64,000 nt of DNA from Neobacillus driksii (GTDB lineage Bacteria > Bacillota > Bacilli > Bacillales > Cytobacillaceae): positions 1 to 64,000 of the forward strand of contig NZ_JACCBX010000016.1 in the NCBI RefSeq assembly GCF_013409995.1, given 5' to 3'. The notes under the pieces are model-generated. The model was not told the origin of the DNA. It saw only the letters and a list, made by a program, of their open reading frames with translations, and searched no databases. Of this stretch, positions 5,327 to 59,991 are shown piece by piece. The translations under genes were made by a program, and so were the position numbers. Within the stretch, counting starts at the first letter, position 1; each line of letters begins with the position of its first letter.

Positions 5327-6070
5327 ATGAAATATCAGCATTTAAAAAAGATATCATTGTTAAGCCTCCTATTAATCCTTCCAATCTACTATGCTTCTAA
5401 CTCTCCGATTCAAACGAGCGCAAAATTTAAATCTGATGTTCATATAAACCGGACAGTTGTTGTATTCCGAAAGGAGCCCATAATGAGACAAAGTTTCCTA
5501 TTAACTGTTCCAACATTGCAACAATTCCCTGAACTGCCTCGGGGCTGTGAAGTAACCAGTTTGGCGATGTTACTTAATTTTGCTGGTGTTTCCGTTGACA
5601 AACTTACTCTGGCAGACGAGATTCCCAAGGTTTCTTATTTCAGTGCTGGATACTTCGGAAATCCTCATCAGGGATTTGTAGGAAATATGTATACCTATAA
5701 TCAACCTGGATTAGGTGTTTACCACGAGGTTATTGAAGACCTTGCGAACCAATATCTGCCCGGTCAAATCGATAATCTTACTGGTAATAGCTTTACTTCC
5801 GTGCAAAAAAAGCTAAACGAGGGTAAACCTGTTTGGGTAATTGTCGGCAGTACATTTGATTTTTTACCAGAAGAGCAATGGGAAACATGGAAAACAAAAG
5901 AAGGAGAAATCAATATCACCCGCAGAATGCATTCTGTTTTAGTCACTGGCTACGATGACAACAACGTGTATTTTAATGATCCCTTTTATCCGGAACAGAA
6001 TAAATCAGCCAATTTTCAGAGCTTTGTCACAAGCTGGAACCAGTTCGGAAGCCAAGCAATTTCTTATTAA
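5327..6070 (+). CDS. Secreted C39-family (YvpB-like) cysteine peptidase
   Basis: A 247-residue protein with a hydrophobic N-terminal segment (about residues 10-25) that is a probable signal peptide or anchor, followed by a peptidase_C39_2 domain. The catalytic Cys lies in PRGCEVTSLAMLLNFAG, the His in RRMHSVLVTGYDD and the Asp in VYFNDPFYP. Known relatives are extracytoplasmic and of mostly unknown substrate; no ABC exporter or bacteriocin peptide is adjacent, so a bacteriocin-processing role is not supported. The ATG has AAAGGAGTTGC upstream, and a strong terminator follows. Confidence 0.82.
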   Translation: MKYQHLKKISLLSLLLILPIYYASNSPIQTSAKFKSDVHINRTVVVFRKEPIMRQSFLLTVPTLQQFPELPRGCEVTSLAMLLNFAGVSVDKLTLADEIPKVSYFSAGYFGNPHQGFVGNMYTYNQPGLGVYHEVIEDLANQYLPGQIDNLTGNSFTSVQKKLNEGKPVWVIVGSTFDFLPEEQWETWKTKEGEINITRRMHSVLVTGYDDNNVYFNDPFYPEQNKSANFQSFVTSWNQFGSQAISY

Positions 6071-6080
6071 GCACAATTAG

Positions 6081-6104
6081 ATGGTGCCTAAGCACCATTT
6101 TTTT
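6081..6104 (+). terminator. Rho-independent terminator after C39 peptidase
   Basis: ATGGTGC-CTAA-GCACCAT followed directly by a run of T. Confidence 0.9.
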
Positions 6105-6169
6105 GTGTAATTTTTTAAGAAGATGGTAATCCTAGCAATGGATATTGTTTCAAGAATGGAGGAGTTATC

Positions 6170-6637
6170 TTGGAATCAACCTTGAAGGTTGGGGATACAG
6201 CCCCTGATTTTTCATTACCGGCAACAACAAAGGATCCCCTTTCGCTTTCCGGTTATCGGGGGAAGACGAACGTGGTTGTCGCTTTTTATGGGATGGATTT
6301 TACTCCCGGCTGAATTAAAGAAATATCCTCTTGGAAAGAGGACTACAAACGATTTGAACAGCTAGGTGCAGAGGTTATTGGAATCAGTGCGGATCATATT
6401 CACTCGCACCGCGTTTTTGCAGCCAGTATGGGGACATTGCCATATCCATTAGCTTCCGATTGGCAAAGGCAGACGATTAAGGACTACAAGGTGTATAACG
6501 AAAAAGGCGGCGTTGCGGTCCGCTCCGTGTTTGTTGTCAATCGAGATGGAGTGATTACTTATATGAATACCTCCTTTAAAGCCGACAAAAAAGAAGATTA
6601 CGAAGCAGTTTTTTCAGAGCTAGAAAAGCTCGTCTAA
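6170..6637 (+). CDS. Peroxiredoxin (AhpC/TSA), probable selenoprotein with TGA at the catalytic Cys
   Basis: A 155-residue thioredoxin-fold peroxiredoxin read through one in-frame TGA at 6311-6313 (codon 48). The N-terminus VGDTAPDFSLPATT and the catalytic segment FYGMDFTPG-[TGA]-IKEISSWKED are those of BCP-like peroxiredoxins, where the residue after TPG is the peroxidatic Cys. After the TGA the frame continues in register (GAEVIGISADHIHSHRVFA, LPYPLASDW) to a normal stop. There is no Cys anywhere, so only selenocysteine would give a catalytic residue. A hairpin of the bacterial SECIS kind starts 12 nt after the TGA. TTG at 6170 is the start, with GGAGGAG before it. The alternative is a nonsense mutation of a Cys codon, leaving a pseudogene. 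No selA, selB, selC or selD lies in the window. Confidence 0.75.
6326..6342 (+). other. SECIS-like hairpin downstream of in-frame TGA
   Basis: TCCTCTT-GGA-AAGAGGA is a perfect 7-bp stem within the peroxiredoxin coding sequence. Its loop begins 19 nt after the TGA and contains two G residues, which fits the described geometry of bacterial SECIS elements (a short hairpin, apical loop roughly 16-37 nt from UGA with a G near its start). The structure is seen directly; SelB binding is inferred. Confidence 0.6.
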
Positions 6638-6649
6638 GCATTACAGAAA

Positions 6650-6679
6650 AGACATCTCCCGACCAATCGAGAGATGTCT
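6650..6679. terminator. Shared terminator hairpin
   Basis: AGACATCTC at 6650-6658 pairs with GAGATGTCT at 6671-6679 between convergent genes; T-rich sequence follows on the plus strand. Confidence 0.7.
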
Positions 6680-6687
6680 CTTCTTAT

Positions 6688-7002
6688 TTAATGCACGACC
6701 TTTAAACCAACCACTGAAAAAATAATACCTAGAATACAAGCCATACGAAGCCTGCTCTTTGATTCTTTAAAGAAAACCATACCAACTACCGCAGCTCCTA
6801 CCGTTCCAATCCCTGTCCATACGGCATAGGCGGTTGATAAGGGAATCGTCTCCATCGCCCGAACGAGCAGCTGGAAACTCATTATAAACCCTCCAATTAG
6901 GATTAGATAATTGATAAAGTTACCTTTATCAGCTGTTCTTTTTAAACCGATAACCCCAACGACTTCAAAACACCCGCCTAAAAAAAGCATTAGCCAATCC
7001 AT
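6688..7002 (-). CDS. SMR-family exporter subunit (YkkD-like)
   Basis: A 104-residue small multidrug resistance protein with four membrane helices. The essential Glu of the first helix is present (GGCFEVVGVIGLK), and ETIPLSTAYAVWTGIGTVGA is the family's core motif. It forms a pair with the following SMR gene, with stop and start sharing one base (TAATG), so the two subunits probably assemble as a heterodimer in the membrane like YkkCD. Substrates of paired SMR proteins include quaternary compounds and guanidinium-type cations; no guanidine riboswitch is visible upstream. Confidence 0.85.
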   Translation of the reverse strand: MDWLMLFLGGCFEVVGVIGLKRTADKGNFINYLILIGGFIMSFQLLVRAMETIPLSTAYAVWTGIGTVGAAVVGMVFFKESKSRLRMACILGIIFSVVGLKVVH

Positions 7003-12927: not shown

Positions 12928-13853
12928 TTATGAAATTATTTCGGATTTATTTACCGAGTGGTTTCTCTCAAATTGGTTCGGTGAGGAATTCCCCAATGTT
13001 GAATGTTTTCGTCTTTCATTATAAAAGCTGCTAATATAATAATTTACCGCCTTAATCGCCTCTACCCTTGTTTTAAATCGCCTTCTATAAATCAAATCTT
13101 TTTTAATTGTGGCATGAAACGACTCGATACAAGCATTATCATAAGGATCGCCTTTTTTACTCATACTGATGTTCATTTCTTTCTCTTTCAAAATATCAAT
13201 GTAGTCATGAGAACAATATTGAGACCCACGGTCTGAATGGTGAATTATTTCCTTGCCAGGCTGTCTTTGAATAATTGCCATGTTCAATGCTTGTATAGCT
13301 AACTCTTTCTTCATATGGTCTGCTAAACTCCAACCGACTATCTTTCTTGAAAATAAATCCATTACGGATGCCTAATAAACCCAGCCCTCAAGCGTCCAAA
13401 TATATGTAATATCTGTAACCCAAGCTTGATTAGGTTCTTCCACACTAAATTGACGATTGAGTATATTAGGATAAATAATTAAATCGTGACTTGAGTCAGT
13501 TGTGACCACAAACTTTTCTTTTTGTGTAGCTTTTAAACCCAATTCCCTCATCATTCGAGCTACTGTTTTTTGAGAAATCGTATAACCCCATTCAATTAAG
13601 TCGTCGTGTACTCTAGGGCTTCCGTAGGTTCCAAAGCTCTCATGAAATGACTTGCTTATTTTCTGTTGAATTTCTACACGATATTTTTTCTTTTCGGATG
13701 GGGGACTAGATTGATCCTTAAGCCATTTATAATAGCCACTCGTTGAAACCTTTAACACCTGGCACATCTTCAATATAGCGTGTTCATTTGAGTGGGCTTC
13801 AATAAAGGTATAAACTACGCTTGGTTTTTGGTGAAGATGTGCATGGCCTTTTT
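12928..13853 (-). pseudogene. IS3-family transposase OrfB, amber-interrupted
   Basis: The DDE catalytic component. Parts before and after are in the same frame, broken by a TAG at 13372-13374 in the context GWVY-stop-ASVMDLFSRK, where a Leu codon TTG is expected in relatives. First Asp of the DDE triad is in AWVTDITYIW, second in IIHHSDRGSQYCS, Glu in DNACIESFHATIKKD. The frame extends upstream of its first Met into the orfA end, reading AHLHQKPSVVYTFIEAH, so it is made by -1 frameshifting at A-AAA-AAG (13848-13854) as a fused OrfAB. One point mutation would restore it. Confidence 0.85.
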
Positions 13854-14117
13854 TAGGATTTCAATTTCCTCTCTTGCATCTGCCAATTCTTTTTCATGTT
13901 GTTTTTTTAATTTTTCAAGCTCGGTAGGTGTAATATAAGTCTCATTAGTCTTCCCAGCATTACATTTAGTCCTATAAGCTAAAACCCATCCGCTTATCGT
14001 CTTAGGTGAAATTTCTAATTCACGTGCAACATGCGATGCTTTTCGGCCTTCCTCAACAATTAATTTTGAAACATAGTCCTTGTACTCTTGATCAAAATGT
14101 TTACCCAAAGTGAACAC
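13815..14117 (-). CDS. IS3-family transposase OrfA
   Basis: A 100-residue DNA-binding component. A helix-turn-helix of the transposase_8 type occupies about residues 8-50 (SHVARELEISPKTISGWV), and the C-terminal half is a Lys/Glu leucine-zipper-like coiled coil (LEKLKKQHEKELADAREEIE). Near its end lies the slippery heptamer A-AAA-AAG used to enter the orfB frame. OrfA itself is intact and would bind the element ends. Confidence 0.85.
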   Translation of the reverse strand: MFTLGKHFDQEYKDYVSKLIVEEGRKASHVARELEISPKTISGWVLAYRTKCNAGKTNETYITPTELEKLKKQHEKELADAREEIEILKKAMHIFTKNQA

Positions 14118-59810: not shown

Positions 59811-59956
59811 AAAGCCTCTTCCAATCAGAAAGAGGCTTTTCATCTAAACCTTATCTCTCAGAATGAAACACTCTGCAGGATTTAGCACCTTTCATCCTTC
59901 ATCGAATGATGGTTGCTGGACGTCGTTGGGCCTGTCCCTCGGTCTCTCGTGATAAG
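59811..59956 (-). promoter_or_regulatory. SAM-I (S-box) riboswitch with terminator
   Basis: On the minus strand CTTATCACGAGAGACCGAGG at 59956 starts the aptamer, followed by CAACGACGTCCAGCAACC, AAAGGTGCTAAATCC and the closing GAGAGATAAG at about 59850. All are hallmark S-box elements. The terminator is AAAAGCCTCTTTC pairing with GAAGAGGCTTTTTT at 59811-59840. High SAM should stop transcription of the four downstream genes. Confidence 0.96.
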
Positions 59957-59991
59957 TTATTCATTTTTTATGTTGTTTTTTGTATATTATG

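Follow-up and report, generated by a model that had tools for sequence, protein, structure and literature searches.

The 64,000-nucleotide stretch analysed here (the window), from the genome of Neobacillus driksii, a soil relative of Bacillus, carries, on its forward strand at 6170..6637, a gene for a small AhpE-like peroxiredoxin in which the peroxidatic residue, 48, is encoded by TGA (6311..6313, +) and is read here as selenocysteine (Sec). The 155-residue frame starts with TTG, 5 bases downstream of the ribosome-binding site GGAGGAG (6158..6164, +), and a purine-rich stretch is present at this place in most of the 25 rows listed. The TGA of codon 48 is the only in-frame stop inside 6170-6637, and 107 further codons follow it before the TAA at 6635-6637. 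This codon closes an active-site motif GxxxTxxU (residues 41-48; 6290..6313, +), composed of Gly41 at the position of the peroxiredoxin Pro, Thr45, and Sec48, and translation of 6170-6637 revealed no Cys codon anywhere in the frame. A preliminary description of this DNA had already proposed the TTG-started frame, its sole TGA at the peroxidatic position, the lack of Cys, and 6428 as the first in-frame ATG beyond the TGA, all of which were confirmed. Upstream lies a putative C39-like gene, named from its sequence (5327-6070), after which a hairpin scan detected a terminator-like hairpin (6079..6100, +), and the peroxiredoxin gene is hence probably transcribed alone. Another terminator-like hairpin, AGACATCTC ... 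GAGATGTCT followed by a T-rich stretch, is found past the peroxiredoxin gene (6650..6688, +); its loop exceeds the length permitted in the scan, and this feature was read from the sequence. Elsewhere, the window includes a SAM riboswitch (RF00162, 84.2 bits; 59848-59958, -) as well as two transposase-like frames with a small helix-turn-helix-like frame (12928-14117, -), which, based on their translations, probably form an IS3-type insertion sequence.

The Pfam AhpC-TSA domain matches residues 7-132 (1.1e-34), i.e. it spans the TGA. Chance is not a good account of a frame that stays open past this codon, given that a random frame of the same base composition would remain open for 107 codons with p ~8e-4 (counting TAA and TAG only), and that, in the relatives for which loci were obtained, the similarity to the window protein (47-94% identity) continues through the TGA. 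The preliminary description had proposed an alignment of homologues to establish whether relatives carry TGA or Cys at this position: within the close family, codon 48 is TGA in 73 of 73 loci (L020-L092) and Cys in none of them, a count that takes in the gene of the window itself (L020) as well as near-copies, and in which some genomes may appear twice, as the printed sequences of L024 and L067, and of L025 and L078, are identical. Loci from named strains are the best 80 of 528, and the search words used did not include codon 48. At least 106 codons are open after the TGA in 72 of the 73 loci; the other one, L090, has 79 and may be a frameshifted copy, with a tblastn match covering 1-154 and a single-frame reading that aligns to residue 104. 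If the TGA were instead a real stop, the locus would be either a pseudogene or the source of a 47-residue fragment and a separate product from ATG 6428. TGA does serve as an ordinary stop for 7 of the 40 mechanically defined open reading frames of at least 200 codons in the window, and a gene caller stopping at TGA would report two short frames at 6170-6637. Against this, TGA is kept in all 73 loci at 47-94% identity and exactly at the peroxidatic residue, the downstream frame is open in 72 of them, and synonymous sites behind the codon are frozen (see below), which is unexpected for a decaying gene. We thus rejected a true stop or pseudogene as very improbable.

The preliminary description had further suggested that the organism decodes UGA as selenocysteine, and had predicted a sel system elsewhere in the genome. 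The host genome (6.5 Mb, 100% complete by tool estimate) encodes one tRNA-Sec above the Rfam gathering score (63.3 vs 47 bits, with 28 weaker matches below), and ARAGORN reported a tRNA-SeC with anticodon tca. The selA (554.7 bits), selB (349.1 bits, with SelB winged-helix domains), and selD (403.4 bits) genes all scored above curated cut-offs in this same genome. Only matches above cut-off were counted for sel genes and tRNA-Sec, since several control genomes gave signals below these cut-offs. The selD frame includes an in-frame TGA of its own (...KAG-U-GCKIG...), and a formate dehydrogenase alpha subunit (FdhA, 790.4 bits) includes one TGA as well. Another peroxiredoxin gene with a TGA (TPVU; 40% identity) has, immediately downstream in the same orientation, a GrdB/PrdB-like gene that also contains TGA (GUPLC) and matched TIGR04483 at 152 bits, under the cut-off of 300; these two genes (L133:824-2058, on contig C6 of the host genome, G000, at ~47.3-48.6 kb) possibly constitute a selenoprotein operon. 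Counting selD and 6170-6637, the host genome thus contains five TGA-containing genes, and together with the sel genes above cut-offs these bear out the predicted sel system. In addition, a formate-dehydrogenase-like stretch at C5:389429-392239 (-) was detected as several match pieces, one of which has an in-frame TGA, and is either a further selenoprotein or a broken copy.

Behind the UGA, the sequence of the 73 genes is nearly letter-for-letter constant (CCTCTTGGAAAGAGG). It includes the hairpin UCCUCUU-GGA-AAGAGGA (6326..6342, +), which begins 12 nt past the UGA and, as judged from its sequence and conservation, is a SECIS element. Codons in this region are near-frozen at the synonymous level (+3 GAA in 73/73 loci, +6 TCT in 71/73, +8 AAA in 71/73, and +9 GAG in 70 of the 72 with Glu), whereas synonymous variation is free at most codons before and after it. 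Across the 65 distinct sequences aligned out of 73 SECIS windows, 99.7% of hairpin cells are paired, compared to 65.9-67.2% when the partner is slid, and RNAalifold, unprompted, returned a single helix, in which columns 23-28 pair with 32-37, comprising the same six pairs. Its covariation term is just -0.12, and shuffles show at least as many pair types as the real sequences do (3.1 vs 3). Two members, L028 and L030, have two pairs swapped on both sides (C-G to U-A and U-A to C-G), every change falling on a third codon position; two such pairs were reached in 3 of 500 shuffles and, as L028 and L030 are related, the swaps may represent a single event. One row, L063, breaks one pair. The identification as a SECIS element is based on these near-frozen synonymous sites along with the compensatory third-position changes in the two related members. 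In the window itself, the 60-nt fold has a z-score of -2.70 (3 of 200 shuffles fold as low), and the apical loop, GGA, is a G-containing loop directly downstream of the UGA, as expected of a SECIS. Simple folds of the other genes in the host genome placed a hairpin at the same start distance after the TGA of selD and one base further on after that of the GrdB-like gene, with the second peroxiredoxin and FdhA folding otherwise behind their TGA.

An open frame once TGA is read as a residue would also be obtained if UGA had been reassigned genome-wide, e.g. to Trp or Cys, or was read through without any SECIS. Among the window's 40 long frames, however, 7 still end in TGA, as do 7 of the 73 genes of the family itself, and neither scenario fits a genome with a dedicated tRNA-Sec, selA, selB, and selD and a conserved hairpin after the codon; this explanation was rejected as well, and we consider it even less probable than a true stop. 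Taken together, the sel genes, the constancy of TGA across 73 loci, and the conserved hairpin support the selenocysteine reading originally put forward, and the gene very probably encodes a selenoprotein, a small AhpE-like peroxiredoxin, with UGA translated as Sec via SelB, Sec-tRNA(UCA), and the SECIS hairpin.

The distribution of the family across the order was consistent with that of selA. The close family was found in 32 of 397 order genomes (E at most 2.8e-41), and a second TGA-containing group in 17 more, both among the matches listed; for the 30 genomes with loci we verified where the TGA lies, and for the others one TGA was reported inside the match. Of these 49 genomes, all with TGA-containing matches among those listed, 48 (the host genome included) have a selA gene above cut-off, compared to 181 of 397 overall (p 2.6e-17, uncorrected for relatedness). 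Selenoproteins had been described beforehand as uncommon in Bacillaceae, a generalization that does not extend to selA, at least, which with 181 of 397 genomes over cut-off is not rare in the order. The one exception is G385: the listed selA matches do not include this genome, and neither selB nor tRNA-Sec exceeds the cut-off in it; its TGA-containing peroxiredoxin gene and SECIS-like hairpin are intact (contig C19; L047 and L136). This may reflect an assembly gap, or else a relic or recent loss of the trait. A gap is conceivable given that, in a genome of the same genus (G167), selB and selA are located less than 9 kb apart.

Named hosts of the close family include Neobacillus, Mesobacillus, Cytobacillus, Pseudoneobacillus, Evansella, Fictibacillus, “Bacillus sp.” strains, and the like, the remaining loci originating from other genomes of the same order. 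The N. niacini protein shares 94% identity with that of the window. One further member, also with TGA, is encoded on a Planococcus lenghuensis plasmid (NZ_CP019641.1; L159), near genes for a class D sortase, a C39 peptidase, and copZ. Cys forms were observed in more distant subfamilies only (43 Cys rows that include many near-copies). In a sample of the phylum, 15 of 398 genomes, the host genome included, matched at a threshold of 1e-22. The top match outside the host genome (104 bits) has TGA, with the best Cys form at 97 bits. A quick tree of 88 rows placed 34 family representatives and one long-branch Sec row on a Sec-only side (SH-aLRT 93), the deep branches being weakly supported. For this tree, L086 and L090 were removed before the family was thinned to 34, and L152 and L136 were removed because they duplicate L133 and L047; a second tree (84 rows) was built without L138, L148, L153, and L154, which are long branches or far rows. 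The Sec/Cys label requires 5 changes on the first tree and 6 on the second, which suggests that Sec and Cys have been interchanged elsewhere in the superfamily, e.g. within Acidobacteriota. There, related peroxiredoxins occur as Sec (L093-L095, L097, L099, and L118) and as Cys (L098 and L116) forms.

In an AF2 model obtained with an alignment-based run (mean pLDDT 96.3), the start of helix 46-57 holds Sec48, accompanied by Thr45 and Arg118. In the alignment, column 48 (Cys or Sec) and Arg118 are invariant across 29 sequences. The top set of structural matches included Burkholderia 5enu, Mycobacterium tuberculosis AhpE (TM 0.88-0.90), and Sulfolobus Bcp4 3hjp (TM 0.89), with 5enu ranked above AhpE and 3hjp beside it, and profile comparisons ranked 2ywn first (147.9 bits), followed by AhpE (136.8), 3hjp (131.8), and 2cx3 (129.9). 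Based on sequence and model, the protein is predicted to be 1-Cys-like, with AhpE as its nearest counterpart and archaeal Bcp enzymes only slightly further away, and the label “AhpE-like” reflects a small score margin together with the single catalytic residue. The term “BCP-type” used in the preliminary description was loose rather than wrong: archaeal Bcp enzymes are indeed near, but AhpE scores slightly higher and shares the layout with a single catalytic residue. Across the family, Cys is absent from at least 39 of the 73 loci, as counted with residues upstream of the start taken in. Members of the Fictibacillus type carry 3 or 4 Cys, of which some lie close to the C-terminus, and might resolve internally.

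The analysis establishes the UGA codon, the genes of the Sec machinery, the conservation of the hairpin, the predicted fold, and the catalytic residues, and from these we infer a pathway that extends to Sec insertion in vivo, peroxidase activity, and a reducing partner. The UGA at 6311-6313 would be decoded as Sec by SelB with Sec-tRNA(UCA), as directed by the SECIS hairpin at 6326-6342, inside the coding sequence behind the UGA. The selenol of Sec48, at the helix start and aided by Thr45 and Arg118, would then reduce H2O2 or organic hydroperoxides. Since the protein has no Cys and hence no internal resolving residue, reduction of the selenenic acid would come from outside, most likely from a low-molecular-weight thiol or a thioredoxin-like protein (1-Sec mechanism).

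At the first position of the active-site motif, where PxxxTxxC has Pro, 44 of the 73 family loci (window included) encode Gly and 29 encode Pro. Of 11 other Sec forms, 4 (acidobacterial) have Val there and 7 have Pro, and Pro is found in 43 of the 43 Cys forms sampled; on the second tree, the motif residue requires 4 changes, and 40 of 40 Cys rows have Pro. These sequences were collected for their similarity to the window and include near-copies, and the counts do not amount to a census. As Gly and Val are absent from the 43 Cys forms, loss of Pro is restricted in this sample to Sec forms, in two groups and through two residues. The missing Pro in 44 of 73 loci, along with the lack of a Cys able to resolve in the window protein, would also be compatible with a peroxiredoxin-fold selenoprotein that is not mainly a peroxidase, e.g. 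a thiol/selenol transfer partner or a peroxide sensor whose pocket is reshaped by Gly41. This seems unlikely, given that Thr45, Sec48, and Arg118 are kept, that the predicted fold is that of AhpE, and that Pro is retained in 29 of 73 loci. For a peroxide-reducing selenoenzyme, we tentatively raise the possibility of an obligate-selenium AhpE-like branch across Bacillaceae and relatives, in which Sec relieved the demand for the motif Pro, other (bulkier) substrates are perhaps used, and a Cys form would be non-working, a combination that we consider plausible but doubtful as a whole. If true, Pro would have been replaced by Gly in the Neobacillus-type branch and separately by Val in acidobacterial Sec peroxiredoxins. 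This Pro is presented in a 2026 review as highly conserved and tied to hydrogen bonding with the peroxide (PMC13188914). Its replacement by Gly or Val, seen here in Sec forms only, provides a direct test of the role of that residue.

Bacillus-type bacteria are largely aerobic or facultative, and a putative peroxide-reducing selenoenzyme found at 73 loci, the named ones in such hosts, offers cultivable material to ask what Sec buys under oxygen. Gene callers that stop at TGA would split such genes in two. According to the same review, selenoproteins are rarely retained by aerobic bacteria (PMC13188914), and a 2016 survey lists Sec peroxiredoxins as a known selenoprotein family with 91 proteins from 78 organisms (PMC5029168). 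A search of a partial literature library returned no description of this Bacillaceae branch.

Compared to known systems, the window protein resembles M. tuberculosis AhpE (Rv2238c; PDB 1xvw, 1xxu, 4x0x, and 5id2) in length (~153 residues for AhpE), fold (TM 0.88-0.90), sequence (31-32% identity), 1-Cys layout (so named in PDB titles), Thr/Cys/Arg set, and the segment preceding Arg118. The Pro-x3-Thr-x2-Cys motif of AhpE is altered in the window protein, with Gly instead of Pro at the first position and Sec instead of Cys, and with Thr and Arg kept. It would work like AhpE without being classed as AhpE itself. AhpE is reduced via mycothiol/mycoredoxin, and to our knowledge these are absent from Bacillaceae. 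Archaeal Bcp-type proteins (Sulfolobus Bcp4 3hjp, 2cx3, and the “Peroxiredoxin-like protein” 2ywn, the top profile match) are nearly as close as AhpE, but are Cys enzymes. None of the 13 NCBIfam families matched was reached at its cut-off. The best of these, PrxU (NF040737, 2.4e-23), which we take to be the Sec peroxiredoxin of Eubacterium acidaminophilum, is likewise a peroxiredoxin with a TxxU active site, but the match of 83.1 bits is far from the cut-off of 270 and the model spans 233 positions compared to 155 residues here, which marks PrxU as a different subfamily. Thioredoxin-dependent thiol peroxidase (BCP; PRK09437) shares the fold and a TPGC-like motif, but scored 67.1 bits for a cut-off of 140. 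A distant Cys relative on a Sphingomonas paucimobilis plasmid (NZ_CP065714.1; L160) displays 33% identity, the motif PLDWSPGC, and an N-terminal extension, and is directly followed by a glutaredoxin family gene, possibly a hint at the reductant of such peroxiredoxins. The P. lenghuensis protein (WP_332309485.1) has 51% identity, the same TGA codon, and the same kind of hairpin sequence, but keeps Pro at the first motif position and is encoded on a mobilizable plasmid; its RefSeq CDS coordinates already span the TGA, under the label “redoxin domain-containing protein”. Overall, the window protein is very probably a selenoprotein of a known kind, and what seems new is a Sec-only branch in which the motif Pro is replaced by Gly in 44 of 73 loci, compared to Pro in 43 of the 43 Cys forms sampled.
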